A DNA stretch of 64,000 bases from Cliona cf. orientalis (taxonomy: Eukaryota; Porifera; Demospongiae; Clionaida; Clionaidae), in NCBI GenBank assembly GCA_963930775.1, contig OZ005703.1:6076001-6140000 (forward strand), given 5' to 3'. Below the pieces are notes generated by a model. The model saw only the letters and a list, made by a program, of their open reading frames with translations. It ran no database searches and was not told the DNA's origin. Within the stretch, counting starts at the first letter, position 1. Every line of letters starts with the position of its first letter. A program made the position numbers and the translations under genes. This document shows positions 56,330 through 64,000 of the stretch, in pieces.

Positions 56330-59300
56330 ATGGCGTCCGTTGTTGCTTTGAATGTCCGCCAAGCTGTTATTCAGTGCTCTCCAGCGCGTAGACCAACTCT
56401 CAACCTACGAAAAATGGAACTGACAGTTGAAAGCCAGTCGCACTACAACAGTCTTAATTGGTGCACTGGAGAGATACTGGGCCAAAATGTCCACGGTATT
56501 GCGGTATCCTGTATGGGAGGACTGTTGCCGTTCCTCTTCATCATCCATGTCCTGTTTCACAAGTGGAGAAAGTATAAGGGCACCCACCCAGTTGCCTCGC
56601 GGGTTGCTGCCAGAGGAGCAGCTGCTTATCACAAGGTAGCACGTAGAGTGGATAGGGTTTACACCAGGAAAAAACGATTCGTCGCAAAGAAAGTGGCTCT
56701 GTTTAAACTCTGGTGCTTAGTGTACTACTATATAGCCTATGGCAAGACCATGAGAGCTTGGTTTCAGTGGAAAAAGAAGTATCTAAATCCACTAAAAAGG
56801 CACGTCGATCGAATAATACATACATACTGTCACGTGTGTAAAATCATTTATCGTTATGCGCCAACATCGGCTATGGTGATACTTATGCATCTTCTTCTAT
56901 CTGGTGATGTCGAGCAAAATCCTGGACCAAAGGATGGTAAGTAACTTTCTGTTACTAGCATACACAAAACAAGGGCCTCATATTAGTGCTTCTGGGCTGG
57001 GGGGGGGGGGGGGGGGGGGGGGGGGGAAAGACATAACTCAATAAAATAAATGTGTACCTCTGACTAGCTCCTATGTACTCGATCTCCCACAGGTCATTTA
57101 ACAATAAAGGATCTAGGAACTGTTCAATCGGCCTTATGGGAAGCACGTTCTCAGTGGTATAACTTAGGGCTCCAGCTAGGCGTAGCAGTTGATGACTTGG
57201 ATGTTATAAAACGAACAAATTTACAAAATGATGATGAATGTCTCACTGATCTCTTTCGCCAGTGGCTTCGACGAGCAGATCCTCAGCCTACTTGGGAAGC
57301 TATAGAGAAAGCTCTACAGTCACGAACGGTTAATTTATCTCAATTGGCCACTAAAATAGTAAATGAAAAAATTGACTCCACAAATGATTCAAAAACGGAG
57401 CCAATAAAGCATGAAAATTTTGAAGTTGAATGTAGCAATGCACAAGCTCAAGCAGTTGTGGTCAAATCTGATGCTTCGTTTCCACATATAAGAGAGTTTC
57501 AAGGATTGGATGAAGAAGAAAAAGAGTATTTAGAACAGAGATTGATTATGGAATCAGAAAATATACAATTGAGCTTTTCCACTCTGTGCAACAAATTCTT
57601 TGATTCATTAGAAGATATCCCATTGAAAAAACTGATACGTGTTCTCAAGGGATTACAGGCATTAAAAAGAGTGAATTCATCCAAATCTGCATCTGTAATT
57701 CAAAGCTATGAATATGTTTTAGAGAATATAACAGATATTGAAGAGGTAAAAGATCTTATTGAAGAATGTTCCACCTTTTTTGACTTTCGCCCAGTAGAGT
57801 ACATGATTCAAAACGTGGGTCTGGAAAGGCACAAACAACTGCTTGAAAAATATAAAGAGGATTTTGAACACTACATTAAACGCAGGATATTTGAATGTCC
57901 ATGTGAGGTTGGTCCTCCAGAAGCTCCTAATAGCACCAAGTTGTACGTCAAATTGGAGTCTGACTATGATAAACTGATAGATCTCAAACAGTTTCAGTGC
58001 CGCCTAAGCTTGATATTGGAGGTCTCCATTCATGTGTTGCGCCTCAGTTCTGTTAAAGATGGTTGCATCCAGCTCACTTTTCTCATTCCTTCTTTCATCC
58101 AAGAAGCCATTTTCCCACTCTCTGCTGACCAAGAAAGAGATATGAAAGAATTGGGCATAATTAAACTGTGGTGTGAGAACTACTACTTTCCAAATCAGGT
58201 ATCTTTAGCTAATTCTATGACTGTACAGTTGTGATCATGATCCCACTTTTATAATGCAGGAACAATCTGATGATGATGATGATGCCAATGATGATAAGTC
58301 AGACTTTAATGAGGCATCCATTGGAGCTGGTAAATTGATTTTTATATGTGCATTTTACAACATTGCTATATGATCCAATACTGTGTATAGAAAATACAAA
58401 GGGCAGTACTAGTGGAGTCGATCATGATTCAGGACTTGGAACAAGCAGATATAAATCTACAATGTCATATACAATGAGTGATGTACGTACATTATGGTTG
58501 CTTTTTTTGCCAAAAATGTTTATGTATACTATAATAGGAAACAATGGAAATGCCGGTGGCTTGTGATACTTTTGAAGACATTGATATGTCATCAGATAGT
58601 GACACCCTTTTAAAAGCCGCCCACAGGGGAAACTTAAAAGAAGTAACAAAACTTATTGAAGAAGATGGTCATAGTCCGTATGAGACAGGTAAATTTGGTA
58701 ACTGTTCTCTGCATTATGCTGCTGCTGGAGGTAGAGTCAATGTATTGCGATATTTAATCGAACATCATGGGTGTAGTCATTCACCGGAAGGTCATTTCAA
58801 ACAAATTCCACTTCACATTGCGGCACAATATGGACAATTAGAAGTGGTAAAGTATTTTACTGCTGAACAAAATGTTGACCCCAGTAATCAAGACAAGTTC
58901 CTAAGGACCCCGTTGCACTATGCATGTATTGGTGGGAACTTAGACTTGGTACAGTATCTTATTAATGAAATCTCCCGCTATCAGCCTATGGATCAATGTA
59001 AACTTGCTTACGATAAAACTAAAGCTGAAAGTACTCCATTGCAATTTGCCTCAGTGTATGGCCATCTAGATATTGTCCAGTACTTTATTATAGATTTGAA
59101 AAGTGATCCATGTACACGTGGTAAGCAGAAGAGGACTATTCTTCATGATGCAGCAGACAGTGGTCATAAGAACATAGTCAGCTATCTGATCGACGAACAA
59201 AAGTGCAATCCAATGCTTATTTGTGAGGATGGAAATACTCCTCTTCATCTGGCTGCAGCTAAGGGGCATCTGGAAGTAGTCAGATTATTAGCTCTAGATA

Positions 59301-61423
59301 AACGTTTTGATTTTACACGGTGTAGAAATTCACAGAATTTTACTCCACTCCATATTGCTGCTCTAAATGGTCACCTTAGTGTAGTACAATTGCTTACACA
59401 TGAGGCTAAGTGGGATCCTAACATCACTGGTTGGATGCGAAGGACCCCACTTCATCTAGCAGCAATGAAAGGACATTTTAGTATCGTTAAGCATTTCATG
59501 GAAGAGATGAACTGTAATCAATTTATTGAGGATAAAGACAGAAAAACTCCATCAGAGCTAGCAAAACAATGTGGTCATATGAACGTGGCTAGTTATCTTG
59601 ATCTCTTGTTTATGAGTGTCATAGTAACAAAAGGAAATCTAGATTCACTAAAATGGTTTTTTAATAAATTTACTGAATGTGATCATAGCTTGCTAAATAT
59701 TCTTTATGGTGCAGCTGCATATGGCCACCTGCACATTGTTAAATATTTGATAGAAGAAAGGAACTGGAGTTCATTAGCATGCAATCGTAATGGTGATACT
59801 CCTCTACATGTAGCAGCAGAGAATGGACATTTAAGTATCGTAAAGTATTTGACTATCATAAAGCAGTGCAGTCCAACAGTTCAAGGCAAGGACCATCAAA
59901 CTCCTGTTCACCTAGCTGCATTACAAGGACATTTAGAAGTCATTACTTTTTTTATCTCTGATTTAAATTGTGACCCAAATATTCCTGGTCATAGTGGGCA
60001 AACTCCTCTTCACTCAGCTGCTAGCCTAGATCAATTACATATTGTCAAGTACCTAATAGAGGAGCAGAACTGCAATCCTTTATGTCTAGATGATAATGAC
60101 GACACTCCACTTCATTATGCATCACAAAGTGGATCACTAGAAGTAGTAAAATATCTCTCCTCAAGAACAAAATATGACAATACTATTAAATATGTGACCG
60201 ATACTTCGCTTCATTTAGCGTCATATGAAGGACATTTGGAAGTGGTACGTTTCTTCATTATTGACTTAAAATGCAACCCGAACATTCCAGCTGGAATGTC
60301 CTCTATAATGCCTCTTCATGCAGCTGCTGGTAATGACCAGGTGCACATTATGGAGTACCTAATCAAAGAACACAAATGTAATCCATTATGTTTGGATAAA
60401 TATGGTAATACACCCCTTCATCATGCAGTAGTGACAGGATCACTTAAAGCAGTTGAGTACCTTACTTTGGAGATAAAATGTGATCCTACACTTCATAGAA
60501 AAAACGAGTGTATGCAAACCCCCTATCATGCAGCCGCCCTTGAAGGGCAGTTGGAAATTTTCAAATTCTTTCTCTTAAGACTAAATTGCAGTCCTAATAT
60601 TTATGCCACAGATGGCCACCTGCCTCTTCACTTAGCTGCTAGTAAAGGTCATTTACATATCATGAAATACCTAATTGAAGAACAAAACTGTGATCCATCA
60701 TGTCTGAATGAAACTGGAGGCACCCCTCTTCATTATGCGTCACGTAATGGATCACTATTAGCAGCGAAGTACCTAGTATTGAAGCATAACTGTGATCCTA
60801 CCCATTGTGATAGCGGGAATAGTTCAATTCACATTGCCGTATCACGGGGTCACTTGGAACTTGTGAAGTTTTTCATCTCAGACTTCAATTGTGATCCTAA
60901 TATTTTGGATGAATTCAAATGCACTCCACTTCATGCAGCTGCTTGTGAAGGTCATGTGCACATTATGAGATATCTGATTGAAGTATGTGGTTGTGACCCA
61001 CGATTGCATTTGGATATAGGTGGAAATACAGTACTTCATTATGCTTCACTAAATGGATCACTTGAGGCAGTGCGGTACCTTACTTTGGAAAGAATGTGTG
61101 ATCCAATACCAAAAAACAATGTTGGCATTGCTCCCATTCATATTGCTCTATTAAGGGGACAATTAGAAATAGTTAAATTTTATGTCACAATATTGAAATG
61201 TGACCCCAACATTCCCGGTGCAGGCAAGAATAACCTTCTTCACTTGGCTGCATTTGTAGGCCATACCCACATCGTTAAATACCTTCTCGATAAGCAGAAT
61301 TATGGTGTTCACTGGAGGAAAGATCAAATTCTAGAAGCTCTTATGGAAGCACAATCACAAGGTCCTGGACACATCTATATATACTTATGCCTTCTTGTAA
61401 GATACTTTTTTCAATGCAAGTAA
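56330..61423 (+). CDS. 2A-like motif / Death domain / ankyrin-repeat protein, 5 exons
   Basis: Exons 56330-56936, 57093-58198, 58260-58329, 58391-58482 and 58538-61423 keep one open frame of 1586 aa. Residues 1-199 are strongly basic with a hydrophobic helix at about 56-77 and a second hydrophobic run just before the 2A motif, GDVEQNPGP (residues 192-200). A Death domain starts immediately after (about 204-290: LGTVQSALWEARSQWYNLGL onward). A central region of unknown fold follows (about 310-585), then a short acidic linker, then about 25 ankyrin repeats (about 640-1560) with TPLHxA and SIVKYL cores and a frequent CDPNI signature. 2A motifs make ribosomes skip the Gly-Pro bond, so a 199-aa leader and a roughly 1387-aa Death-ANK protein are predicted. 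Death and ankyrin domains suggest an innate-immune or cell-death adaptor; this is inference. Confidence 0.85.
56906..56929 (+). other. 2A-like ribosome-skipping motif (DVEQNPGP)
   Basis: The codons spell D-V-E-Q-N-P-G-P, a full match to the D(V/I)ExNPG|P consensus, preceded by the usual hydrophobic/LLxxG context (HLLLSG). The skip point would fall between 56926 and 56927. The exon ends two codons later. Confidence 0.85.
56999..57026 (+). repeat. 28-nt guanine run in intron 1
   Basis: An uninterrupted G tract in a 156-bp intron, 62 nt after the 5' splice site. It can form a G-quadruplex in the pre-mRNA. Its exact length may be uncertain for sequencing reasons. Confidence 0.8.
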
Positions 61424-62700: not shown

Positions 62701-62739
62701 ATGGCGGCTCCCGATAAACAATCTTCGAATTCCTCATGA
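62701..62739 (+). promoter_or_regulatory. Upstream ORF overlapping the FUT11-like start (ATGA)
   Basis: ATGGCGGCTCCC starts a 12-codon frame (MAAPDKQSSNSS) whose TGA (62737-62739) overlaps the main ATG (62736-62738). Its start has A at -3 and G at +4, a strong context, while the main start has C at -3. Main translation would need reinitiation or leaky scanning, unless transcription starts within it. Confidence 0.6.
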
Positions 62740-64000
62740 CTGCCGAGAGCAAGGCGTCCCCCCACTCATCTAGAAATTCTACCCCCGACATGTGCCCATC
62801 AACGAAGAAACTCTTCAAGATCGCTCTATTCCTCCTCTTTCTCTCTCTGGTCTCCGCCTTGCTCACCAGCTTCTACCTCTTCTCTGAAGAAGACGAACTC
62901 TTAGCCCTTCAAGACGACCGCGGTGGCGGACAGCAAGGCGACGAATACGTATTGGTAGACACATCACGCGAGAAGGATCCCATATTCCTACCTCCCGAGG
63001 GGACCACGGATCTCCCAATAATCGTATGGTGGACTGATTTCGTCCCAGAAATGAGAATTATCAGACAGTGCAAGGAAGGCTCTTGCTTGATCACAAAGAG
63101 CAGAACAGAACTCCAGAATCCGAACGTATCAGTGTTTATGTACTATGGGACAGACGTGGACTGGAATGACCTACCATTACCACGGAAACCTCAACACATG
63201 TGGGCACTGTTGCACGAAGAATCACCAAAAAATAACTGGGTCTTAGCCACCGAAAAAGGCATAGAACTATTCAACTTCACAGCTACTTGTAGCCGCTACT
63301 CGAGCTACCCACTACACCTTCACTTTTTTCACAACATTGAACACCTGATGCAACCAATTAGGTACCCCACTCAACTCAAAAGCAAAGGTAGCCTCGGGCA
63401 GGTTTTCTTTATGCAATCAGACTGTGACCCTCCGTCCGATAGAGACTCTTACATTGAAGAATTGATGAAATACATTGATGTTGACTCGTATGGTAGGTGC
63501 CTGCACAATAAGGACCTTCCAGAAGAGTTGCAAGATCCGTTAACATTCAATAGTGAAGGAGTAATGAATATTGTTGGCAAGTACAAGTTTGCCATAGCAT
63601 TTGAGAATGCATTATGCAATGATTACCTCACAGAGAAGTTCTGGCGTCCGCTATACGCAGGAGTAGTTCCAATTGTCAGGGGCTCCCCCACCATCAAAGA
63701 CTGGGCACCGAGCGAACAGAGTATAATAGTGGCTGAAGATTTTCCAACACCCAAAGATTTGGCGGAATATTTGAAATTTCTAGACGGAAATGATGCGGAG
63801 TACGAAAAATACCTTGCATGGAAGACTGAAGGTGTCACAAACAAACGACTCTTAGCAGACTACAACTCTCGGGAGTGGTTTATTGAAAACGAGGGCCTTA
63901 GTTTCATAGACGGCTTCCAGTGCTACGTCTGCGATCAGCTTCACTTGAGGAGAAGGCAAAATATCAAGACTCCACTCATCGCTGATAAGACACACTACGA
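62736..64000 (+). CDS. FUT11: Alpha-1,3-fucosyltransferase 11-like (GT10), 5' part, runs off window
   Basis: One open frame of 421 codons from ATG 62736 to the window end, without an intron. Residues 31-53 form a signal anchor of type II topology (KIALFLLFLSLVSALLTSFY), followed by an acidic stem. GT10 blocks match FUT10/FUT11: VWWTDF, YYGTDVDW, WALLHEESPKNNW, QSDCDPPSDRDSYIEELM, VDSYGRCLHNKDLP, AFENALCNDYLTEKFWRPLY, then GSPTIKDW and IDGFQCYVCDQLH. FUT10 and FUT11 are ER/Golgi GDP-fucose-dependent enzymes, recently described as protein O-fucosyltransferases for EMI domains. Human FUT11 is 492 aa, so about 70 residues are missing at the edge. An in-frame TAA at 62715 excludes an earlier start in this frame. 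Confidence 0.9.
   Translation, partial: MTAESKASPHSSRNSTPDMCPSTKKLFKIALFLLFLSLVSALLTSFYLFSEEDELLALQDDRGGGQQGDEYVLVDTSREKDPIFLPPEGTTDLPIIVWWTDFVPEMRIIRQCKEGSCLITKSRTELQNPNVSVFMYYGTDVDWNDLPLPRKPQHMWALLHEESPKNNWVLATEKGIELFNFTATCSRYSSYPLHLHFFHNIEHLMQPIRYPTQLKSKGSLGQVFFMQSDCDPPSDRDSYIEELMKYIDVDSYGRCLHNKDLPEELQDPLTFNSEGVMNIVGKYKFAIAFENALCNDYLTEKFWRPLYAGVVPIVRGSPTIKDWAPSEQSIIVAEDFPTPKDLAEYLKFLDGNDAEYEKYLAWKTEGVTNKRLLADYNSREWFIENEGLSFIDGFQCYVCDQLHLRRRQNIKTPLIADKTHY

Follow-up and report, generated by a model that had tools for sequence, protein, structure and literature searches.

The question raised by this locus is whether one reading frame of a sponge immune gene is translated as two proteins. The locus lies in a stretch of 64,000 nucleotides of Cliona cf. 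orientalis (contig OZ005703.1, positions 6,076,001 to 6,140,000), hereafter the window. On its forward strand a Death-ankyrin gene (window positions 56330..61423) contains a complete 2A/StopGo motif in frame between two coding segments of an open spliced model. Our answer is that the ribosome probably releases an N-terminal leader at this motif and then makes the Death-ankyrin protein. The genome-wide use of the 2A device, and a TRADD-N-like region in exon 2, are additions to an earlier sequence-only reading of the gene. Comparisons with published work draw throughout on excerpts of the papers cited.

The gene is predicted to have five exons (56330-56936, 57093-58198, 58260-58329, 58391-58482 and 58538-61423), which join to give 4761 nt, or 1586 codons plus a stop. 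In this splice model, computed on the window sequence, there is no internal stop and each junction is GT..AG, reproducing the five-exon gene with agreeing phases of the sequence-only reading. Starting at the 5′ end, exon 1 (56330..56936, supported by coding conservation in relatives) encodes a 199-amino acid leader ending in the 2A, and runs on through P-K-D to the first base of the following codon. The exon terminates with LLLSGDVEQNPGP, in which the motif DVEQNPGP occupies residues 193-200 and matches the core (D/G/C/N)(V/I)ExNPGP; the complete in-frame 2A before the Death exon that had been claimed is confirmed. The whole 2A/StopGo element comprises residues 177-200 (APTSAMVILMHLLLSGDVEQNPGP; 56858..56929). 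DVEQ is preceded by HLLLSG, which on comparison by eye with the rule in PMC12846837 is an L-rich context with the (A/S/C)G ending described for Asp12. The predicted break lies between Gly199, whose codon ends at 56926, and Pro200. The phase-1 donor GTAAGT follows directly 3′ of exon 1, 7 nt past NPGP, and opens intron 1 (56937..57092, phase 1), the intron side of the same donor being sharply diverged in paralogs. Continued unspliced into intron 1, the frame reaches a stop after KDGK.

The leader is basic, with 32 K/R against 7 D/E in its 199 residues and 26 K/R against 4 D/E in residues 79-199. It has one clear hydrophobic stretch (residues ~54-79, with a Kyte-Doolittle maximum of 2.24 in a 19-residue window), which is a predicted membrane helix (56489..56566). 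This is located ~115 residues upstream of the 2A and is followed by a strongly basic stretch; weaker hydrophobic stretches are found at ~117-136 and ~171-195. The charge counts and hydropathy support the basic leader with a hydrophobic helix that was described earlier, its membrane type being a prediction. Searches of Pfam and PDB with the leader gave no match of reportable level, and a VTT match (E 0.18, in one of five) is taken as chance. The AlphaFold model of the leader, made without an alignment, has a predicted local distance difference test score (pLDDT) of 45.1 and is too poor as evidence either way.

From the 3′ side of intron 1 the frame continues into exon 2 (57093..58198), where profile and homolog comparisons place a Death domain and a TRADD-N-like region. 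The Death domain (57095..57376) starts four residues past the predicted Pro start. As a single sequence it is sub-threshold against Pfam Death, reaching 20.4 of the 22.6 bits when trimmed. A profile of ten Death sequences (A2, which differs from the profile used for the flank test below by locus L083 in place of L075; loci are given L numbers and contigs C numbers) matches FADD in PDB with E 3.9e-7, and then the Death domains of PIDD, RIPK1, ankyrin-1 and CRADD. The AlphaFold model of the Death segment, again without an alignment (pLDDT 56.7), is too poor as evidence either way, and a fold search with it gave no Death domain among 19 matches, all with E of 1.7 or worse. The remainder of exon 2 is common to the relatives (alignment A1), and includes the TRADD-N-like region (57885..58190, approximate bounds inferred from homologs). 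Pfam TRADD-like_N matches two of five homologs (best 8.1e-4) and a fragment of L075 (1.9e-4), all below the cut-off; no TRADD match was found in the Pfam search of the window segment, the L083 exon or the L084 exon. The PDB profile search of the region returned no TRADD, and its LEDGF-type matches (best E 0.055 or worse) are taken as chance.

Two linkers, an acidic one in exon 3 (58260..58329) and another in exon 4 (58391..58482), are placed by the splice model. Exon 5 (58538..61423) encodes C-terminal ankyrin repeats through to the stop codon, and these are unambiguous (Pfam Ank_2, E 1.6e-189). Pfam finds no NACHT in the window gene, and the order is Death then ankyrin. In the Pfam search of exons 2 and 5 there is no endonuclease or reverse transcriptase; only ankyrin is above the cut-off, with Death and other weak matches below.

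The 2A motif in the window gene is not due to chance, because codons for DVExNPGP occur 105 times in the genome to which the window belongs (216.8 Mb in 149 contigs) and those for the reversed pattern 0 times; ~0.2 would be expected by chance, by arithmetic at equal base frequencies. A wider pattern, which extends position 12 to Asn, Ser and some Gly codons and position 13 to Ile or Met, gives 160 matches against 0 reversed, and D-I-E alone gives 47 sites.

The layout around the motif was compared at 67 distinct sites with flanks, comprising those found by leader similarity, the 30 pattern loci that come first when sorted by contig, and additional sites picked by hand. Within 20 nt past the motif, the first GTA or GTG is in phase 1 at 63 of the 67 and in phase 2 at one (L050), while three have none (L071, L075 and L082; L075 has GTT in phase 1 instead). 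Not one of the 67 has such a trinucleotide in phase 0. A home-made Death-type profile of ten sequences, nine from the same loci and one from the window, was used to scan up to 3 kb downstream. A Death-type exon lies downstream of the motif at 51/67 sites, but upstream at 0/67 and on the opposite strand at 0/67, and these zeros serve as the control for the profile. Among the 16 sites lacking a match, L011 is followed by a Death exon at 2.6 kb, past the 1.5 kb scanned (as seen in L083), L050, L071 and L082 are without the intron layout, and the other 12 were covered over ~1.5 kb only. Death exons far outnumber the 2A sites, with 848 candidates to the window Death domain, 150 of which were scored. 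About 50 of the scored candidates are on C8 (by eye), with a single D(V/I)ExNPGP site on that contig among the matches listed; therefore the 2A leaders mark a subset. A whole-genome Pfam search for Death domains, with 150 of 1292 candidates scored, was too saturated for enrichment, and the flanks were read instead.

The residues ahead of the motif were compared at 30 loci (L039-L068) found by the octapeptide codons alone, of which four are also among the leader-similarity matches. The residue immediately before the octapeptide, a position outside the search, is G in all 30, and is itself preceded by S, A or C in every case (27 S, 2 A and 1 C). These sites fit the published active context, since the invariant (S/A/C)G matches the (A/S/C)G rule of PMC12846837. 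The position four residues before the G is L in 29 and I in one, and the upstream frame includes a Met in 29/30. Over all the sites with full context the G is present in 66/66, E and PGP being constant there by construction. Their upstream sequences group into 23 leader clusters, which is an upper bound on how many leaders are unrelated, as short ones tend not to cluster well and mobile-looking sites are included.

A few sites have other arrangements. In L082 (C1:25839100-25842300) DIEVNPGP is without the intron layout and has a helix-turn-helix in frame downstream; it looks mobile, and 12 further near-identical codon strings are dispersed on C1. L050 (C1:21877439-21880461) carries DVEVNPGP in a frame of 601 amino acids that runs into a cysteine-rich stretch, zinc-finger-like by eye, and that we take to be like a non-long terminal repeat (non-LTR) retrotransposon. 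The 2A frame of L071 (C17:632000-640000) runs on without a nearby donor, and a 704-amino acid frame of unknown type lies downstream. L079 (C10:759500-763500) has two 2A sites on the same strand, 370 bp from each other, with an array of Death-like frames downstream; the two sites may belong to alternative first exons.

Relatives of the window leader are found at six loci on C2 and eight on C5, and a weak match on C13 (L024, E 0.018) is joined by clustering, giving a family of 16 loci with the window. All 16 leaders are followed by a same-strand Death exon (the window, C2 6/6, C5 8/8 including the decayed L022 and L023, and L024). The order of Death, TRADD-N-like and ankyrin sequences in the window gene recurs in two C2 paralogs whose exons are open, with ankyrin frames of 1397 and 923 amino acids. 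In another C2 paralog, L069 (C2:1382300-1390600), there is a stop in the Death/TRADD-N exon, while the leader and 2A are open. The C5 architecture differs: L070 is Death-NACHT (NACHT, 1.3e-23), and NACHT is matched at four of the eight C5 leader loci (L016, L018, L019 and L023), the other four being covered over ~1.5 kb only. A second leader family, with DVEENPGP, has leaders of 36 to 78 amino acids from the first Met in four loci, and its member L072 is Death-Death-NACHT.

Purifying selection acts on the leader, and most strongly on its 2A end. Twelve copies (L010-L021) were aligned with the window. Leader identity to the window is 39-44% for C2 and 32-36% for C5, and synonymous sites are near or at saturation between the window leader and these copies. 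The ratio of nonsynonymous to synonymous divergence (pN/pS) within the leaders is 0.26 for C2 and 0.42 for C5, the pairs compared being non-independent. Over the final 22 columns pN is lower, at 0.020 (C2) and 0.011 (C5), with pS of 0.238 and 0.108 respectively, compared with pN 0.065 and pS 0.247 for the C2 leader overall. The majority residue is common to the window, C2 and C5 in 11/22 tail columns, against 30/187 elsewhere. Over 60 nt, identity is 0.92 on the exon side of the donor and 0.38 on the intron side for C2, and 0.97 and 0.43 for C5, in ungapped comparisons that exaggerate the intron divergence. The constraint and the sharp drop at the donor together indicate that the leader and its 2A end are selected coding sequence, and that the position of the donor is well supported. 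The relatives make the predicted splice, and selection on the motif, much firmer than a single gene could.

The motif itself varies within the family. Five C2 copies have NIELNPGP and one has DIELNPGP. On C5 four copies have DVELHPGP and two DVELDPGP, and L022 and L023 are broken; L024 has DVELHPGP. In viruses, Asn at 12 and His at 16 occur as rare variants with >95% activity in their own contexts (Li et al. 2026, PMC12846837), so that the C2 variant (Asn12) and the commonest C5 variant (His16) are among the rare variants assayed there. Together with Asp16, they would provide a natural comparison for how the efficiency of separation is tuned.

In the proposed mechanism one reading frame would give two proteins, a leader and a Death-ankyrin adaptor. 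Exon 1 would encode a basic, membrane-inserting leader ending in StopGo/2A, which the phase-1 splice would join to a Death/TRADD-N-like/ankyrin immune adaptor. With the 2A peptide in the exit tunnel of the ribosome, the bond between Gly199 and Pro200 would be skipped and the leader released as a separate membrane-type protein of 199 residues. The same ribosome would then continue and produce the cytosolic Death-ankyrin protein, with Pro as its first residue. A Pro-started Death-ankyrin product had been suggested before, and is supported as what skipping would give. It is most likely that the majority of ribosomes skip, with a minor uncleaved, membrane-tethered form possible. The mechanism builds upon the open model, the motif in its active-type context, the selection at the 2A end and the repeated layout of 2A, phase-1 donor and Death exon; from these we infer splicing in vivo, skipping, membrane insertion and Death-domain signalling.

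Several points weigh against this mechanism. The predicted structures of the Death segment and the leader are poor, membrane insertion is predicted from hydropathy only, and the 67 sites are a non-random sample of ~160. Moreover, the excerpt of PMC12846837 does not name Asp16, found in the two C5 leaders with DVELDPGP, as a permissible variant. These two genes may no longer skip, which counts against a need for the 2A motif in every copy.

The alternatives differ in what they make of the leader and its motif. It is conceivable, and we regard it as a tentative proposal, that skipping is deliberately incomplete, so that one mRNA gives both a membrane-tethered and a free cytosolic Death-ankyrin protein, as proposed for sea-urchin NLRs. 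In the latter recoding is ~80%, and the uncleaved part is sent to the exocytic pathway (PMC4981915). The membrane-type helix of the window leader (by hydropathy) is consistent with this, the family variants Asn12, His16 and Asp16 could tune the ratio, and PMC12909245 reports sponge NLRs annotated with transmembrane domains. However, the L-rich context resembles a type of which one example was assayed as active, and the four StopGo motifs tested in the same study gave ~93 to nearly 100% (PMC12846837), which would leave little of the tethered form; near-complete separation is therefore no less likely than a useful mixture. If instead the 2A were a decaying remnant, conserved only as a hydrophobic tail, the gene would encode a normal membrane-anchored Death-ankyrin receptor. 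The two C5 copies with Asp16 and the two decayed copies point in that direction, but we consider this unlikely given that the Gly before the octapeptide, outside all the searches, is kept at 66/66 sites across 23 leader clusters, that constraint on the leader peaks at its 2A tail and that 105 sites compare with 0 reversed.

The two remaining explanations would disconnect the 2A from the Death gene. Exon 1 might be a separate small gene, unspliced to the Death exon, and the stop just past the donor (KDGK) means that an unspliced leader could be made. Yet a 2A four residues ahead of that stop would serve no purpose, and conservation holds on the exon side of the donor but is lost on the intron side. 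These points, together with the phase-1 donor at 63/67 sites and the Death exon downstream of 51/67, make this explanation very improbable. 2A sequences also occur in non-LTR retrotransposons of animal genomes, and the motif could have come from such a mobile element adjoining the Death gene. The motif is the same in both settings, and in this genome itself L050 and L082 carry 2A in units that look mobile and lack the intron layout. The window gene differs in having an intron and a Death exon, with no endonuclease or reverse transcriptase downstream. Since only Death, TRADD-N-like and ankyrin sequences lie downstream of the window leader, and a Death exon follows at each of the 16 loci of its family, an origin in a mobile element is hardly credible. 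Translation of the spliced frame as a separate leader and a Death-ankyrin protein remains the reading that we prefer.

Both parts of this arrangement have known counterparts, the cellular 2A before immune receptors in sea-urchin NLRs and the Death/TRADD-N/ankyrin architecture in the sponge Amphimedon. StopGo is described as rare in cellular genes, the sea-urchin NLRs being the case named (PMC12846837), and NLRs are also the cellular case named in a 2024 review (PMC11512398). Non-LTR retrotransposon 2A is named in PMC11512398 and PMC4981915. The 2A sequences of Strongylocentrotus purpuratus NLRs (SpNLR2A) are 26 amino acids long and located at the extreme N-terminus of NACHT proteins, with 12/14 predicted as signal sequences (PMC4981915). 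As had been pointed out in the sequence-only reading, the parallel holds: in both animals cellular immune genes with a Death domain carry a 2A towards the N-terminus, with hydrophobic sequence ahead of the 2A, and two products are proposed. The window 2A differs in that it ends a 199-residue leader with its own helix, the 2A element starting ~177 residues in. The window protein also has ankyrin repeats and no NACHT, although NACHT is present at L070, L072 and four of the eight C5 loci. Leaders shorter than that of the window (36 to 78 residues) occur in the DVEENPGP family, including that of the Death-Death-NACHT gene L072.

Amphimedon has 357 TRADD-N proteins, in which a Death-superfamily unit and TRADD-N are followed by a variable C-terminus, with ankyrin among the commonest (PMC8195603). 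The window protein shares the Death-superfamily unit and the C-terminal ankyrin repeats, with a TRADD-N-like region between them that is sub-threshold in homologs. A term search of the main text of PMC8195603 for 2A-like, NPGP and ribosome skipping found none of these. Among viral sequences, the L-rich motifs 2 and 6 end with (A/S/C)G before Asp12, and one example of motif 6 is active in reticulocyte lysate (Li et al. 2026, PMC12846837). The window element shares with this class the core octapeptide, the (A/S/C)G before Asp and the L-rich hexapeptide. It differs in belonging to a cellular gene, with a phase-1 intron 7 nt past NPGP and a single site at the end of an exon. No sponge 2A was found in the excerpts of the literature searched, which include PMC12909245, PMC12846837, PMC11512398 and PMC5972666, the search not extending to the 2025 survey of eukaryotic 2A sequences. 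An apparent 2A-like term in the sponge paper PMC5890393 is the name of a protein.

Other features were observed in passing. Intron 1 contains a long run of G (window 57000-57026). Near the end of the window a long open frame (62718-63998), by eye like a type II membrane glycosyltransferase, runs out of the window. On C12 three clustered cathepsin-like exons (near 3669638, 3671715 and 3674580) carry CGASYAF within Peptidase_C1 matches, with Ser at the active site where a cysteine protease has Cys, the silicatein mark of sponges.

A much broader proposal, speculative and in our view rather unlikely as a whole, is that StopGo is a standard exon-borne immune module in this sponge. Many unrelated membrane leaders, each with a 2A and a phase-1 intron, would be joined to Death-fold receptors or adaptors, and dozens of genes would each give a leader and an effector. 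Changes at positions 12 and 16 would set the tethered share; infection or toxins that disturb translation could alter the ratio, and the device would act as a sensor of ribosome health. At a more modest level, dozens of immune genes related to this one have the same device at the same place, which suggests that making two proteins from one message is built into them. With 160 pattern matches, and the phase-1 donor and Death exon after most of the 67 sites, StopGo would be in routine use in the immune repertoire of an animal. This raises the question of whether the immune 2A sequences of sponges and sea urchins are of shared ancestry or were gained independently and, if it is true, some of the predicted transmembrane NLRs of sponges may be two proteins.

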